Below are positions 13,957 to 22,173 of a DNA stretch of 34,255 nt, piece after piece. The notes under the pieces are model-generated. The model did not search any database. It was given only the letters and a program-made list of their open reading frames with translations, and was not told where the DNA came from. The stretch comes from Fibrobacteria bacterium GUT307 (GTDB lineage: Bacteria > Fibrobacterota > Fibrobacteria > Fibrobacterales > Fibrobacteraceae). The stretch covers positions 1 through 34,255 of the forward strand of contig LIUI01000026.1 in NCBI GenBank assembly GCA_001462235.1, given 5' to 3'. The position numbers and the translations under genes are program-made. Numbering within the stretch: the first letter of the stretch is position 1; every line of letters starts with the position of its first letter.

Positions 13957-14045
13957 GGTATTCCCCAAGCAAGTTTTGGCGTAAAATTAGAATTTTTTAA
14001 AAAAAATTATCTATATTTCTCACTCATTCCCCAATGAGGTATTTT

Positions 14046-15716
14046 ATGAAGAAAACATTTTTGACGTTACTTTTGGTTCTCTGCGCAGGCATCCACGCTC
14101 AGAGTAGGCACGAATTCTCATTATATGGCGGTGTTGGTTGGTCAACTATGCTATATGATAATGAATTGGGAAAAGGTACTAGCGAAATAGGCGGCGGATT
14201 ATTCGGGCTAGGGTACACCTTTTTCTTTTCCGAATATTTAGGATTGGGATCGGGAGCCGAATATGCCTATTACCGAAATAAAGAAGAAAGCGGAGGTGAA
14301 GACCTTCACAAACAACGAGTTCATCAGCTTCAGATTCCGCTAATGCTTCAGTTTCAGATAGGTGACTGGCATAAGTACTATCTTGCAGCAGGGGCTAAAG
14401 TTGGAATACCTTTAGATATATCCTCTGAATTTGTATCCCCTAAATTCGAAGTAGGCGGAAAAGATTATTCCGACGATCTCCGAACAACCTTTCTGGCATC
14501 TGCAGAAACAGGTATGAAATGGCAGTTAAAAGAACATCTGTATTTATATACAGGAGCTTATTTGGACTATGGGCTGAATTCTTTTGTCAAAGATGTTAAG
14601 AGTAAGCCGTTTGCGGTTGGGCTTAAATTAAAATTGGCTTTTGGAAGCGGTTCTGTTGTAGATTCGCTTCATTTGAAATTCAGCGCAGGGGCCGATTCCA
14701 TACAAATGGGAGAAAGCACTGTTTTGAATTGGATTGCCATAAACGCAAACGAAGCTAGCATAGAAGGCATAGGGCCTGTTCCGGTAGAAGGTTCAATTAA
14801 GGTCAATCCTTCCCAAACTACTAGATATACCATCACTGCAAAAGGCAAGGGTGGCGAAAAAACAGAATCTGTAATTGTTGCGGTAAAACTTCCGCCACCT
14901 CCCTCAATTGTGTTTACAGTAAGCCCAAAAACAATACAAGCAGGGCAGGTTGCCGCACTGAATTGGATGGTTTCCAATGCCGATGAAATTATCATAAAAG
15001 ATGTAGGGGCTGTTCCCGACAAAGGTACAGCGGAAGTAAAACCTTCGGAAACAATAAGATATACTATTATCGCGAAGGGCAAAGGTGGCGAAAAAACAGA
15101 AACTGTGGAGCTAGTTGTAGAGCCTCCGCCAGGCCCTTCTGTTATATTCAATGCTGTTCCGGGGTCAATATATAGAGGGCAAATTGCTACATTGAACTGG
15201 ATTACCACGGATGCAGACGAAGTGAGCATAGAAGGAATTGGCTCTGTTCCTCTTAAAGGCACAAGTGAAGTAAAGCCTTCCGAAACCACTAAATATACTC
15301 TTATCGCAAAAGGAAATGGCGTAACTAAAACGCAAATTGCAGAGGTTATAGTGGAAGAGCCGCCACCCATAGAAGAAAAAGTCAACTTGAAAGGCGTAAA
15401 CTTCCTTTCTGGCAAAGCTGAGCTTTCGCTTGATGCCAAGAAAGTACTGGATGGAGTCGCAGAACAACTTTTGACATACCCTAATGTTAAAATTGAAATT
15501 CACGGATACACGGATAATGTAGGCCAGGCAGTTACAAACCAGAAATTATCCGAAGCCCGTGCAAAATCGGTTATGAATTATTTGGTTAGCAAAGGCGTTA
15601 AATCGAATAGAATGAAAGCGACTGGCTATGGACCAAAGCAACCCATCGCAGACAATTCAACCGAAGAAGGCCGTGCACTTAACCGCCGTATAGAGATGGT
15701 AAGGGTAGATAAATAA
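14046..15716 (+). CDS. OmpA-family protein: N-terminal beta-barrel-like domain, three Ig-like repeats, C-terminal OmpA domain (copy 1)
   Basis: Signal peptide MKKTFLTLLLVLCAGIHAQ; repeats near 'SIQMGESTVLNWIA', 'TIQAGQVAALNWMV', 'SIYRGQIATLNWIT'; OmpA C-term 'IEIHGYTDNVGQAVTNQKLSEARAKSVMNYL'. Start chosen by alignment to copy 2. Confidence 0.9.
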   Translation: MKKTFLTLLLVLCAGIHAQSRHEFSLYGGVGWSTMLYDNELGKGTSEIGGGLFGLGYTFFFSEYLGLGSGAEYAYYRNKEESGGEDLHKQRVHQLQIPLMLQFQIGDWHKYYLAAGAKVGIPLDISSEFVSPKFEVGGKDYSDDLRTTFLASAETGMKWQLKEHLYLYTGAYLDYGLNSFVKDVKSKPFAVGLKLKLAFGSGSVVDSLHLKFSAGADSIQMGESTVLNWIAINANEASIEGIGPVPVEGSIKVNPSQTTRYTITAKGKGGEKTESVIVAVKLPPPPSIVFTVSPKTIQAGQVAALNWMVSNADEIIIKDVGAVPDKGTAEVKPSETIRYTIIAKGKGGEKTETVELVVEPPPGPSVIFNAVPGSIYRGQIATLNWITTDADEVSIEGIGSVPLKGTSEVKPSETTKYTLIAKGNGVTKTQIAEVIVEEPPPIEEKVNLKGVNFLSGKAELSLDAKKVLDGVAEQLLTYPNVKIEIHGYTDNVGQAVTNQKLSEARAKSVMNYLVSKGVKSNRMKATGYGPKQPIADNSTEEGRALNRRIEMVRVDK

Positions 15717-15744
15717 TTATCTACATTAGGGAACGAGGTATTTT

Positions 15745-17460
15745 ATGAAAAAAACGTTTTTGATGTTACTTTTGGTGCTCTGTGCAGGTCTTCATGCTCA
15801 GAGCAGGCATGAATTCTCGTTATATGGCGGTGCCGGTTGGGCTACTTTGCTTTATGATGATGTGGCTACCGATAAATTTAATAAGTTTAAAGGCAGAACA
15901 GACTTTGGCGCCTTAGGCGGGTTAGGGTACACCTTCTTCTTTAACGAATATTGCGGTTTGGGGTTAGGAGCCGAATATGCTCTTTACAACAGTGAACCCG
16001 AATTTGGCGATCCTATTGAACGAGCAAAATTGCAACTCATGGCAGTTCAAATTCCGCTTATGCTTCAAGTACAGGTAGGCGGCTGGCACAAGTTCTTTCT
16101 TGCAGCAGGAGGTAAGCTAGGATTGCCCATTGATGCAAGTTCCAAATCAAAAAAAGATGGCTATAAAGATTGGCCAGAAAAGCCCAAACTTGAAGTAACA
16201 GATGCTATCATTTCTGCGGAAATGGGAGCGAAATGGAAGTTTAAGGAGGGTATATATCTTTATTCCGGATTTTATTTGGATTACGGAGTGAACAGCATGC
16301 TAAAGAGTGGATACAGAAATGCAACCAAAGAAAATCCGGATATGACGCCGCTTGCAGCCGGGTTTAAGCTTAGACTAGCCTTAGGGGGCGGTTCTGTACT
16401 CGATCCGCCTGTTTTGGAATTCGTCACAGGGCAAGATTCTATATCTGCCGGGCAAAGCGCTGTTTTAAAATGGATTGCTTCCAATGCAGATACGGTATAT
16501 ATAGACGGCGTAGGGGCTGTTCCGGCCCAAGGCTCGGCAGAAGTAAGCCCTTCCCAGACAGAAAGATATACCATCACTGCCAAAGGCAGGGGCGGCGTAG
16601 AGACAAAGTCCGTGCTTGTTGCGGTAAAACCTTTGCCTATTCCCTCAGTAGCATTTAGCATAAGTCCAAAAACCATACTGAAGGGGCAAGCTGCTACTCT
16701 AACCTGGATGGTTTCTGATGCAGATCAAATTAACATGGTTGGCGTTGGACTCATGCCAGACAAAGGCACTATGGAAGTAAAACCCTCGGAAACAACTAAA
16801 TACATTCTTACCGCTAAAGGAAAAGGTGGTGAGAAAACGGAATTTGTAGAAGTAGTTGTAGAGATTCCACCTGGCCCATCGGTTATATTCAATGCAACTT
16901 CCCCGATAATACAAAAGGGACAATCTGCTACTTTGAATTGGATTACCACAGATGCAGAAAGTGTGAGCATAGAAGGAATAGGGCCTGTCCCTGATAAGGG
17001 CACTAGAACTGTGAAGCCTACTCAAACCACTAAGTATGTTCTTACCGCAAAGGGAAAGGATGAGGTTAAAACAGAAATGATGGTGGAAATCATCGTGGAA
17101 GAACCACCTCCCATAGAGGAAAAAGTCAACTTAAAGGGTGTAAACTTCCTTCCGGGCAAATCAGTGCTTTCGCTAGATGCCAAGAGGGTGTTGGATGGAG
17201 TTGTAGAACAGCTTTTGGCGTATCCTAATGTTAGAATTGAAATTCAGGGTCACACAGATAATTTGGGCAAGGCAGTTACAAACCAGAAATTATCAGAAGC
17301 CCGTGCCAAGGCAGTTGTGGCTTATTTGGCTAGCAAAGGCATTAAACTGAATAGAATGAAAGCGGTTGGCTATGGACCAAACCAACCAATAGCAGACAAT
17401 TCAACCGAAGAAGGCCGTGAGCTTAACCGCCGTATAGAGATGATCAGAGTAGATAAATAA
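15745..17460 (+). CDS. OmpA-family protein, tandem paralog (copy 2)
   Basis: 571 aa; same architecture and near-identical signal peptide and OmpA domain ('IEIQGHTDNLGKAVTNQKLSEARAKAVVAYL'). Confidence 0.9.
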   Translation: MKKTFLMLLLVLCAGLHAQSRHEFSLYGGAGWATLLYDDVATDKFNKFKGRTDFGALGGLGYTFFFNEYCGLGLGAEYALYNSEPEFGDPIERAKLQLMAVQIPLMLQVQVGGWHKFFLAAGGKLGLPIDASSKSKKDGYKDWPEKPKLEVTDAIISAEMGAKWKFKEGIYLYSGFYLDYGVNSMLKSGYRNATKENPDMTPLAAGFKLRLALGGGSVLDPPVLEFVTGQDSISAGQSAVLKWIASNADTVYIDGVGAVPAQGSAEVSPSQTERYTITAKGRGGVETKSVLVAVKPLPIPSVAFSISPKTILKGQAATLTWMVSDADQINMVGVGLMPDKGTMEVKPSETTKYILTAKGKGGEKTEFVEVVVEIPPGPSVIFNATSPIIQKGQSATLNWITTDAESVSIEGIGPVPDKGTRTVKPTQTTKYVLTAKGKDEVKTEMMVEIIVEEPPPIEEKVNLKGVNFLPGKSVLSLDAKRVLDGVVEQLLAYPNVRIEIQGHTDNLGKAVTNQKLSEARAKAVVAYLASKGIKLNRMKAVGYGPNQPIADNSTEEGRELNRRIEMIRVDK

Positions 17461-18340: not shown

Positions 18341-18925
18341 ATGAAAAAAGCATCAAAATTCTTGGCTTTTGTAGTCTTTATTGCAGTCATAGCTGCTTGC
18401 AGCAGCGGCAATGACAATAACGATGAAAACAGCGGCAACCTTTCATCCTCTTCGGGTGGCGGTAGCAACATATCTTCTTCCAGTGACGTTGGCAACAACA
18501 CGCCATCTTCAAGCAGCGATGGCGCACCCTCTTCTAGCAGCGGTGGTAACATTGGCGATGGCGGAGCGTGCTATCTCAATATTAATTTATTCGGACTTGT
18601 CAATGTAGGTACATGTGCAGAAGGACAGCTCATGAGTCAAGAAGAATGCGATTTAGCAGCGGAAGAAGCAGAAGCGGAGGGATTAGAATATGAATTTGAA
18701 TATGGGACTTCTTGCCCATCCGATTACGCACTTGACTGCGGGATAGATGATGAAGGTCTCCATGTTTATGTATATGGCGATGCTACCGTTCTTGCAGCAT
18801 TAGGAATGGCAACTTGCGAAGATCTTGAAGAAGATGATGGAGAAGAGTATTATGCTAAAAAAACATCTTCCTCCAAAAAACATTTTTCTCCTATTAAAAA
18901 ACTTTCCCCCTTGACAAAGTTTTAA
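18341..18925 (+). CDS. Lipoprotein with poly-Ser linkers and an acidic Cys-containing domain
   Basis: 'MKKASKFLAFVVFIAVIAACSSGNDN' lipobox, then repeated SSSS blocks and an acidic domain; start set at the ATG downstream of the promoter. Confidence 0.85.
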   Translation: MKKASKFLAFVVFIAVIAACSSGNDNNDENSGNLSSSSGGGSNISSSSDVGNNTPSSSSDGAPSSSSGGNIGDGGACYLNINLFGLVNVGTCAEGQLMSQEECDLAAEEAEAEGLEYEFEYGTSCPSDYALDCGIDDEGLHVYVYGDATVLAALGMATCEDLEEDDGEEYYAKKTSSSKKHFSPIKKLSPLTKF

Positions 18926-18939
18926 ATTTTTTCTATATT
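18911..18939 (+). promoter_or_regulatory. Sigma70-type promoter for the glnB-amtB leader
   Basis: TTGACA (18911-18916), 17 nt, TATATT (18934-18939). Confidence 0.88.
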
Positions 18940-18947
18940 TTACCCAA

Positions 18948-18969
18948 GTAACCCATGAGTATGGGTTAC
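18948..18969 (+). promoter_or_regulatory. Leader hairpin P1 (GTAACCCAT-GAGT-ATGGGTTAC)
   Basis: Perfect 9 bp inverted repeat beginning about where transcription should start. Confidence 0.75.
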
Positions 18970-18987
18970 ACACACAAAGGCGTGTGT
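18970..18987 (+). promoter_or_regulatory. Leader hairpin P2 (ACACAC-AAAGGC-GTGTGT), overlapping the terminator 5' arm
   Basis: 6 bp stem with a hexaloop having A at position 1 and G at position 4. Confidence 0.6.
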
Positions 18988-19036
18988 TTGTCTATGGCTG
19001 TCTTTAGGTAGCTGTAGGGGAACACGCGCCTTTTTT
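18979..19036 (+). terminator. Intrinsic terminator/attenuator in the glnB 5' leader
   Basis: GGCGTGTGTT (18979-18988) pairs with AACACGCGCC (19021-19030) with one G-U pair, followed by TTTTTT (19031-19036); an internal hairpin CTATGGCT/AGCTGTAG lies in its loop. Confidence 0.75.
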
Positions 19037-19055
19037 ATTTAGAGGAGATTGCAAA

Positions 19056-19397
19056 ATGAAGCTCATAACAGCATACGTCCAGCCAGATAGGCTCAATGAT
19101 GTAAAAAAGGCGCTCTACGAGAGCCAGATTTACAAAATGTCAATAACAAACGTTCTCGGATGCGGCCAGCAAAAAGGCTACGTAGAATCCTACAGAGGCG
19201 CAGAAATAGAGGTGAACTTGCTCAAAAAAGTTCGCATAGATATTGGCGTAAACGACGACTTTGTGGATAGCTGCATAGCAGCCATAGTAAAAGGTGCACG
19301 CTCCGGGAATATAGGAGACGGAAAAATATTCGTTTCTCCCTTGGAAAAGTGCATAAGAATAAGAACAGGTGAAACCGGGCCAGAGGCCATAGGCTAA
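19056..19397 (+). CDS. glnB: Nitrogen regulatory P-II protein
   Basis: 113 aa; '[29 protein letters not shown]' T-loop region, 'IGDGKIFV...[10 protein letters not shown]'. Confidence 0.95.
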
Positions 19398-19407
19398 GGA
19401 GGCAACA

Positions 19408-20730
19408 ATGAAGAAGATACTAACAATTACCGCAACCCTCTTGCTTTGCGCCACAAGCGTAATGGCACAGGATTTAAAGGCACCGGATTATGCAAGCGAT
19501 TTTGTGGGCGTGAATTTCACATTCACAAACATCTGGATTATGCTCTGCGCACTCTTGGTGTTCATAATGGGCCTTGGCTTTGCGCTCTTAGAAAGCGGCT
19601 TAACCAGAGCTAAAAATACAACCAACATTCTTTTCAAGAATTTGGTAACCCCCGCCATTGGCGTTACTACCTATGCCCTTTTGGGTTTTAACCTTATGTA
19701 TCCCGGTGATGCTTGGATTATCCCAAACGTCTTGGGCTTTGGCGGGTTTGGCTTGCCGGGCATTGGAGACGATGCTTCTTTCACGGCAGCATACAACCCA
19801 GGCTACACCTACCTCTCTGACTTCCTTTTCCAGAGCATGTTTGCAGCTACTGCCGCAACAATAGTTTCTGGTGCGGTTGCAGAGAGAATAAAATTGCACG
19901 CATACCTTGTGTTCACGCTAATCTACGTTGCATTCGTCTATCCATTTGTGGGTAGCTGGAACTGGGGCGGCGGTTGGTTAGATGCAAGAGGTTTCCACGA
20001 TTTAGCCGGTTCTACCCTTGTTCATAGCGTTGGCGGCTGGGGTGCTTTGGCAGGTGCCATTGTTCTTGGACCTCGTTTAGGCCGCTATATTGGCGGGAAA
20101 GCAAAGGCCGTGCCCGGCCATAATTTGACTTTTGCTACCATAGGCGTGTTTATATTGTGGTTTGGATGGTGGGGCTTTAACGGTGGCTCAGCTTTGAGCA
20201 GCAGCCCAAAAGATACCGCTTGGATTTTGGTGACCACTAATATAGCTTGCGTATGCGGAATTTTGGGTGCCATGCTTACAAGCTGGTTTGTCCAAAAGAA
20301 GCCAGATTTGACCATGGTTTTGAACGGCGCACTTGCAGGTTTGGTTGCAATTACGGCTCCTGCAGACGTTGTAAGCGTTCCTGCTGCAGCTATAATAGGC
20401 GCTATCGCGGGCATTTTGGTTGTTTTCAGCGTGTTATTCTTTGACAAGGTGAAAATTGACGATCCTGTTGGTGCAATTTCCGTTCATTTAGTCTGCGGAA
20501 TTTGGGGAACCATTGCTGTTGGAATCTTCGGTGAATTCAGCATTCTAACCCAGTTGATAGGCGTTTTGGCTTATGGTGCGGTTTGTTTCCCGGTGGCATT
20601 TGCAATATTCTTTGCCATAAAGAAAACAATCGGCTTAAGAGTAAGCGAGCGCGAGGAATTGCGTGGTCTTGACCTTGGCGAACACGGACAAGAAGCGTAC
20701 AACGGTTTCCAGATATTTACCAATACTTAA
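19408..20730 (+). CDS. amtB: Ammonium transporter
   Basis: 440 aa; signal sequence, 'GSTLVHSVGGWGALAGAIVLGPR', 'ISVHLVCGIWGTIAVGIF', C-terminal 'GLRVSEREELRGLDLGEHGQEAY'. Confidence 0.97.
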   Translation: MKKILTITATLLLCATSVMAQDLKAPDYASDFVGVNFTFTNIWIMLCALLVFIMGLGFALLESGLTRAKNTTNILFKNLVTPAIGVTTYALLGFNLMYPGDAWIIPNVLGFGGFGLPGIGDDASFTAAYNPGYTYLSDFLFQSMFAATAATIVSGAVAERIKLHAYLVFTLIYVAFVYPFVGSWNWGGGWLDARGFHDLAGSTLVHSVGGWGALAGAIVLGPRLGRYIGGKAKAVPGHNLTFATIGVFILWFGWWGFNGGSALSSSPKDTAWILVTTNIACVCGILGAMLTSWFVQKKPDLTMVLNGALAGLVAITAPADVVSVPAAAIIGAIAGILVVFSVLFFDKVKIDDPVGAISVHLVCGIWGTIAVGIFGEFSILTQLIGVLAYGAVCFPVAFAIFFAIKKTIGLRVSEREELRGLDLGEHGQEAYNGFQIFTNT

Positions 20731-20752
20731 TTTGTTAACACTCTCTCAAAAG

Positions 20753-20812
20753 CCCGCCGTCCTAACCTACTGGTTATCTTCTTGCCAGGTTATGGACGGC
20801 GGGTGCCTTTTT
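20753..20812 (+). terminator. Strong intrinsic terminator/attenuator between amtB and the ATP-grasp gene
   Basis: CCCGCCGTCCTAACC (20753-20767) pairs with GGTTATGGACGGCGGG (20788-20803) with one bulged T; T-tract at 20808-20812. Confidence 0.85.
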
Positions 20813-20832
20813 GTTTGATGGAGGATAGGGAT

Positions 20833-22173
20833 ATGGACATGCTTTCTACAACCGCTGCTCATGAAATCAACAAGTTGATGGTGAGATATGGTGTGAAATT
20901 TGGAATTTACAAGAACGGAAAGTTCATAGAACAGCTATTTCCTTATGATGCTATTCCACGAATTATCCCCCACGAGGAATTTGCCCTTTTAAACAAGGGC
21001 CTTGTTCAGAGAGTGGATGCCCTAAATTGTTTTTTAGCGGATGTTTATTCCAAGGGGCGCATTATAGCAGACAAAGTGGTGCCCGAGGAATTTGTTTATA
21101 TTTCAAAGGGTTATTTGCCGGAATGCAAAAATATAGCTCCTCCTAAAAATGTGTATAGCCATATTTCCGGCATAGACCTTGTTCAAGCAAAAAGCGGTGC
21201 ATGGTACATATTGGAAGATAATTTGCGAGTGCCTTCCGGTGCTTCTTATCCGCTTATTGCCAGAGAGCTTTGCCGCATAGCAAATCCGGATGCTTTTTCC
21301 GACAATAATGTAATAGACAATCGCAATTATTCCGATATGCTACGCGAAACTATGGATAATGTAAACTGCGGGGGTTTAAACGTGATACTTACGCCCGGCA
21401 GGTATAATGCCGCCTATTTTGAGCATTCATATCTTGCAGAGCGTACAGGTGCTTTGCTAGTTGGGGCATCTGATCTTATTGTTGAAAATGCTATGCTGTA
21501 TGTAAAGGATTATCTTGGCGTAAAGGCAAAAGTAGGTGCAATATATAGGCGAATTTCCGATGAATACCTAGACCCAATGACATTCCAAGCGGATTCTCTT
21601 ATTGGCGTGCCGCACATAATGGATACATACCGCACAGGTAATTTAGCGATAATAAATGCACCCGGCAATGGCGTAGCAGACGACAAGGGCATTTATTACT
21701 TTGTGCCAAAGATGGTAAAATACTATCTAGGCGAAGACCCAATATTGGAAAACGCGCCAACATATTTGCCCTATTACGAGGAAGACCTTAAATACACGTT
21801 GGATAACATACAGAAGCTGGTTATCAAAGATGTTTCTGAGGCGGGTGGCTATGGCGTTGTATTTGGCAGTGAACTTTCTGCAGAAAAACTTTCCGATTTC
21901 AAAGCCTTAATTCAGCGTGAACCAAGGCGTTTTATTTCGCAAGAAGTAATAGATTTCATAGACCTTGACATAATGGAAGAGGACGGCAGCTGCATTGCCA
22001 GAAAAGCCGATTTAAGGGCATTTGTGCTTACAGGCAGCACCACACGTGTATGGCCAAGCGGGCTTACGCGTTTCTCACGCATTGAAGGTTCGTTTATAGT
22101 CAATTCTTCGCAAGGCGGCGGTTTTAAGGATACTTGGGTGTTGAATGAGATTTCTAAATTGCCCGTATGTTAA
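20833..22173 (+). CDS. Circularly permuted ATP-grasp type 2 protein (DUF404/DUF407, COG2308-like)
   Basis: 'SHISGIDLVQAKSGAWYILEDNLRVPSGASYPLIAREL', 'DVSEAGGYGVVFG', 'LRAFVLTG...RVWPSGLTRFSRIEGSFIVNSSQGGGFKDTWVL'; start assigned by GGAGG at 20820-20824. Confidence 0.87.
   Translation: MDMLSTTAAHEINKLMVRYGVKFGIYKNGKFIEQLFPYDAIPRIIPHEEFALLNKGLVQRVDALNCFLADVYSKGRIIADKVVPEEFVYISKGYLPECKNIAPPKNVYSHISGIDLVQAKSGAWYILEDNLRVPSGASYPLIARELCRIANPDAFSDNNVIDNRNYSDMLRETMDNVNCGGLNVILTPGRYNAAYFEHSYLAERTGALLVGASDLIVENAMLYVKDYLGVKAKVGAIYRRISDEYLDPMTFQADSLIGVPHIMDTYRTGNLAIINAPGNGVADDKGIYYFVPKMVKYYLGEDPILENAPTYLPYYEEDLKYTLDNIQKLVIKDVSEAGGYGVVFGSELSAEKLSDFKALIQREPRRFISQEVIDFIDLDIMEEDGSCIARKADLRAFVLTGSTTRVWPSGLTRFSRIEGSFIVNSSQGGGFKDTWVLNEISKLPVC

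Follow-up and report, generated by a model that had tools for sequence, protein, structure and literature searches.

A putative ANTAR-type attenuator with a single canonical hexaloop in front of glnB-amtB in termite-gut Fibrobacterota

ANTAR target RNAs and the glnB-amtB leader

Dual-hexaloop targets of ANTAR antitermination proteins are known in front of PII, ammonium-transporter, nitrogenase and glutamate-synthase genes in other bacteria (PMC3369931). By the accepted rule these RNAs need two hexaloops in vivo, and in the EutV system deletion of the first hairpin, P1, abolishes induction in vivo (PMC3369931). The crystal structure of EutV pointed instead to one hexaloop as the minimum: the minimal ANTAR binding motif was redefined as a single hexaloop, and the existence of single-hexaloop sites was foreseen (Walshe et al. 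2022, PMC8934654). A described regulator of nitrogen genes is NitR, an ANTAR protein of Clostridium saccharobutylicum which antiterminates the GS/GOGAT genes on nitrogen limitation (PMC6316151).

We analysed a window of 34,255 nt, the whole stretch of contig LIUI01000026.1 from Fibrobacteria bacterium GUT307 considered here. Judged from sequence comparison, the leader of its glnB-amtB operon is, with a probability of roughly 0.86, an ANTAR-type transcription attenuator through which nitrogen status controls the operon. Like the eut, nas and ami target RNAs (Ramesh et al. 2012, PMC3369931), it combines an A1/G4 hexaloop overlapping an intrinsic terminator with an ANTAR protein in the same genome and nitrogen genes downstream, and it shares with eut the AC/GU closing pairs that were found necessary there. 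Unlike those RNAs (PMC3369931), the sites described here have one canonical hexaloop each, frequently at the transcript's 5′ end, and the P1 hairpin of Fibromonas leaders has a YGAAUG loop and no linker; the eut hairpins are separated by approximately 5–12 nt, whereas P1 and P2 of the window leader abut (linker 0 nt).

The original prediction had placed a transcription start, two hairpins and a terminator ahead of glnB; the hairpins and the terminator are present in the sequence, behind a sigma-70 promoter (Table 1). Transcription would start near 18946. P2 follows P1 directly, as had been proposed, and its hexaloop carries A1 and G4 above closing pairs A-U and C-G. The terminator does reuse the loop and 3′ arm of P2, and is longer than had been claimed, with 14 outer pairs and a 12-pair inner helix; an RBS lies between it and the glnB start codon. 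In the predicted fold of the window leader P2 overlaps the terminator and excludes it, and the leader as a whole folds with −49.2 kcal/mol, compared with −22.4 ± 3.2 for shuffled sequences (z = −8.5, 0/200).

Table 1. Elements of the glnB-amtB leader and the genes behind it, in window coordinates
Feature	Position	Strand	Details
sigma-70 promoter TTGACA-17-TATATT	18911..18939	+	11/12 consensus matches; TTGACA 18911-18916, spacer 17 nt, TATATT 18934-18939
P1 hairpin GTAACCCA-TGAGTA-TGGGTTAC	18948..18969	+	covarying; not an A1/G4 hexaloop; drawn with tetraloop GAGU, 9 bp: GTAACCCAT 18948-18956 / GAGT / ATGGGTTAC 18961-18969
P2 antiterminator hairpin ACACAC-AAAGGC-GTGTGT	18970..18987	+	predicted ANTAR binding site; ACACAC 18970-18975, loop AAAGGC 18976-18981, GTGTGT 18982-18987
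intrinsic terminator	18976..19036	+	5′ arm = P2 loop and P2 3′ arm; fold, family covariation; AAAGGCGTGTGTTT (18976-18989) pairs with ..GGAACACGCGCCTTT; six T at 19031-19036
glnB/glnK, PII protein	19056..19397	+	PF00543, 8e-24; ATG at 19056
amtB, ammonium transporter	19408..20730	+	PF00909, 3e-116
circularly permuted ATP-grasp gene, downstream neighbour	20830..22173	+	PF14403/PF04174

The AAAGGC sites and their putative regulator

Searches by pattern and by covariance model, run also on the window genome itself, identified approximately 40 AAAGGC hairpins with a terminator in Fibromonas-type genomes and in one other Fibrobacterota genus, g22. The window genome has one further site, before a porin gene. 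The P2 loop reads AAAGGC at 36 of 41 Fibrobacterota sites, and the genes behind them include nifH (TIGR01287), nifE, a nifN-nifB fusion, GSIII and parts of glutamate synthase, together with genes for a homocitrate-synthase-like protein, 4Fe-4S proteins, alpha-E and permuted ATP-grasp proteins, an EAL-domain protein and a porin. Sister leaders have a promoter of the same type as that of glnB-amtB. A permutation test of the P2 arms gave p = 0.001, and the terminator arms are conserved and covary across the family. Because homologues of the window's ATP-grasp gene carry an AAAGGC leader in three genomes (G001, G010 and G059), this gene probably belongs to the same nitrogen regulon. Model matches in G039, G021, G024 and G009 (C203) were discarded as ordinary terminators or as lacking the hexaloop or promoter context.

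Several leaders depart from the common form. Genome G005 has four near-identical AAAGGC attenuators before lipoprotein-like genes (L118 14919, L120, L121 and L122); their promoter region is unusual, P2 lies 19 nt from a −10-like box, and the set resembles a duplicated cassette. A tandem pair of attenuators precedes nifH in G009 (L126 955-1045), and the leader of the EAL-domain gene in G010 (c-di-GMP phosphodiesterase-like; L133 6979-8272) has the divergent loop AAGGGU. The nifH leader of G012 (L135 5656-5727), in whose 77% complete genome no ANTAR gene was found, has an altered P2 loop, AGAAAG, and is possibly a decaying site.

The same module extends beyond the phylum. Homologues of the ANTAR protein were found at 79 loci, largely in Clostridia and also in termite-gut Treponema, Endomicrobia and Synergistaceae, and approximately 40 sites with the P2/terminator module accompany ANTAR genes linked to glnA in Clostridia, Treponema and Endomicrobia. 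These precede parts of gltB, GSIII, an ammonium transporter, gdhA, asparagine synthase, purine genes, carA and genes of glnA operons, the names outside Fibrobacterota having been read from translations rather than assigned by a family search. In these sites, found with a covariance model and loop expression that are biased towards the AAAGGC loop, 42/42 loops retain A1 and G4, and position 3 varies. A scan without a loop constraint again returned hexaloops, with AAAGGC the commonest, a loop whose G4-G5-C6 are also constrained by the terminator stem. Stem pairs −2 to −5 swap between G-C, A-U, C-G and U-A in a compensatory manner. A control scan of the glnB loci of relatives in which no ANTAR gene was found gave one site.

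The original prediction, which had seen no ANTAR gene in the window, made its case depend on such a gene elsewhere in the genome and on covariation of P1 and P2 among relatives. Both are present: P1, P2 and terminator all covary, and a PF03861 search of the window genome yields exactly one ANTAR gene (E = 4e-16), directly behind glnA, in the order GXGXG glutamate-synthase-like gene (gltB3-like), glnA, ANTAR. Among motif-bearing genomes 10/11 have an ANTAR gene, compared with 27/169 Fibrobacterota overall (Fisher p = 2e-8, a value that ignores relatedness and involves two clades); against the 13 glnA-type ANTAR orthologues the same test, again ignoring relatedness, gives p = 8e-13. Three genomes with a glnA-type ANTAR gene have no covariance-model match, and the ANTAR gene of G030 (25% identity), for which no leader was found, was set aside as a different type. 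In G001, which has about ten leaders, neither an ANTAR gene nor glnA was found. Unrelated ORFs stand behind its gltB3 gene (L112, 1650 onwards) where glnA-ANTAR would be expected; insertion and misassembly are candidate readings of this break, and since glnA is missing too and the contig turns to unrelated DNA, the block is probably lost in an assembly gap.

The ANTAR protein consists of a receiver-like N-terminal half (PF00072 slightly below the cut-off) and a full ANTAR domain (PF03861 above the cut-off), a combination that, together with linkage to glnA, characterizes a NitR-type regulator. It aligns with Rv1626, EutV, AmiR and NasR. The residues reported as RNA contacts of EutV include Met172, Lys143, Lys147 and Tyr164 (PMC8934654); in our alignment Met172 is kept, K143 and K147 are replaced by Arg, and Tyr164 by His, as in AmiR. 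The phosphoacceptor position holds Asn in the window genome (G000), G002 and G010 and Tyr in genus g22, and the Asp is kept only in G007, G009 and G084. Control by phosphorylation is doubtful in the window genome, given the Asn at this position. EutV depends on P1 and on being phosphorylated by EutW; here, by contrast, the phosphoacceptor is Asn, Asp or Tyr and the ANTAR gene has no linked kinase gene. As with NitR (PMC6316151), the protein is tied to GS/GOGAT genes; compared with NitR, the host is a member of the Fibrobacterota, the regulon adds nitrogenase, PII-AmtB, GSIII and porin genes, and the RNA target is mapped by comparison only.

An AAAGGC hairpin with overlapping terminator precedes the ANTAR-containing operon in four ANTAR-bearing relatives. 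The glnA-ANTAR operon of the window genome has no AAAGGC leader, so the regulator does not appear to control itself there; G007 and G009 differ in this respect.

One hexaloop or two

The strongest competing explanation keeps to the textbook architecture, with P1 as a divergent hexaloop that is bound first by the same ANTAR dimer. P1 lies upstream of P2, is conserved, fits a hexaloop drawing and usually has a purine at loop position 4. It is, on comparative evidence, a real covarying hairpin: 17 sequences keep an 8-bp helix with two-sided changes in 6/8 pairs, and the cells with two-sided changes number 20, compared with 6.5 in shuffles (0/500), a signal that slid controls fail to reproduce. 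The loop, however, is UGAGUA in the window and YGAAUG by family consensus, with A1 absent and G4 mostly absent; the U at position 1 of the window's loop had been conceded as a weak point when P1 was first proposed. The 0-nt linker of the window leader also departs from the eut spacing, and linkers in most of the P1-bearing sister leaders measure 0–5 nt. P1 itself occurs in about half of Fibromonas leaders, and most family members lack it.

A canonical second hexaloop was not found in its place. Within 45 nt upstream of P2, 0/80 sites have an A1/G4 hexaloop with a stem of at least 4 bp, and the two such hexaloops downstream of P2 (2/80) equal chance. Relaxing the stem to 3 bp gave upstream candidates at 7/80 sites against about 2 expected; several of the listed candidates include the −35 box ATTGAC and so lie outside the RNA, and a hidden second hexaloop was rejected. 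Promoter geometry bears on the same question. At approximately 16 Fibrobacterota sites, and at most of those in Clostridia whose promoter is clear, 0–10 nt separate the −10 box from the P2 stem, which leaves no room for P1, and P2 would there begin at the transcript start. At another 16 Fibrobacterota sites, the window's included, the distance from −10 to P2 is 26–33 nt, and P1 occupies this gap.

We consider a canonical dual-hexaloop target unlikely on these grounds. Of the two-hairpin reading originally put forward, ANTAR antitermination by P2 against the terminator stands, and the canonical two-hexaloop motif does not, in view of the P1 loop, the abutting hairpins and a family that mostly lacks P1. 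The window leader does not belong to the dual-hexaloop family in any simple sense, though it most likely works like one of its members. Textbook ANTAR switches need two binding hairpins, but most members of the regulon seem to manage with one. P1, probably an addition of the Fibromonas lineage with a conserved loop of its own, may act in recruitment, with an altered specificity, or as a 5′ stabilizer.

A proposal that P2 acts as DNA, a palindromic operator near +1 for a nitrogen repressor with the terminator incidental, would account for an inverted repeat at the usual position of a repressor site, so near the −10 box at many sites. It is nonetheless improbable, since the best-conserved part of P2 is the non-palindromic loop AAAGGC, at the large majority of sites the terminator can still pair with the loop and 3′ arm, the stems vary by compensation, P2 is shifted to about +25 where P1 exists, and the sites co-occur with the gene of an RNA-binding ANTAR protein. 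Slightly less credible still is ordinary constitutive attenuation by a 5′ hairpin and a leaky terminator that need no dedicated regulator. The terminators are indeed strong and P2 weak (medians of approximately −26 and −4.7 kcal/mol), but against it stand the conservation of loop letters between phyla, the association with glnA-linked ANTAR genes and the nitrogen theme downstream. Least likely of all is a ligand-binding riboswitch or leader-peptide attenuator, which the attenuation architecture and the 18-codon ORF noted earlier across the window leader might suggest, because P2 with its short loop falls below the usual size of an aptamer, neither the window leader nor any of 14 sister loci matches an Rfam family at the gathering threshold (the permissive threshold gave chance-level matches only, e.g. 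mir-2450, E = 0.04), and the ORF, absent from most sister leaders and different where one is present, is probably incidental.

Proposed mechanism and change of control

Our data are consistent with a model of ANTAR antitermination in which, by default, the sigma-70 transcript would fold into the strong terminator and stop near 19036. Under nitrogen limitation the ANTAR protein would bind the P2 hexaloop through G4 and the AC/GU closing pairs, and bound P2, held through the poly-U stretch, would exclude the terminator and allow polymerase to read into glnB-amtB. Under nitrogen excess the protein would be inactive and transcription would again end near 19036. In this target family one canonical hexaloop, placed at the transcript's 5′ end or close to it, would suffice, and such a switch needs protein behaviour unlike that of EutV, whose induction requires P1. 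Nitrogen limitation is the probable signal in view of the gene content and of clostridial NitR; more speculatively, the tight coupling of glnA and ANTAR makes glutamine synthetase a candidate partner in nitrogen sensing. Taken as a whole, the sites very probably represent a NitR-type ANTAR antitermination regulon, induced by nitrogen limitation and comprising dozens of nitrogen genes with single-hexaloop targets.

Control of the glnB-amtB operon appears to have shifted from one mode to another. Among Fibrobacteraceae relatives in which no ANTAR gene was found, a sigma-54 box precedes the same glnB in 15/16, so that in termite-gut Fibrobacterota the operon looks rewired from a sigma-54 promoter to a sigma-70 promoter with attenuator. 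Loss of sigma-54 as the cause is ruled out by the presence of rpoN in all 61 genomes examined. On balance, we lean towards the broader view that a cross-phylum family of single-hexaloop ANTAR targets at the transcript start, with a glnA-coupled pseudo-receiver regulator and tuning by the YGAAUG hairpin in Fibromonas, runs ammonium uptake and nitrogenase in termite-gut Fibrobacterota in place of sigma-54/NtrC.

In the open-access literature we found no report of a single-hexaloop, transcript-start ANTAR family, of such a family in Fibrobacterota or of a YGAAUG P1; subscription journals may differ. A natural family in which a defined protein goes with approximately 80 single-hexaloop sites, at a defined position at the transcript start, makes the question of one hexaloop or two directly testable. 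For termite-gut Fibrobacterota the regulon also provides a first candidate system of nitrogen control, one that takes in the nitrogenase genes.

Elsewhere in the window, the gap between amtB and the ATP-grasp gene contains a GC-rich, terminator-like hairpin followed by a short T-run (20751-20815). Upstream, at 14034-17460, lie two adjacent and closely similar genes for OmpA-like outer-membrane proteins with repeated segments, apparently a tandem duplication.
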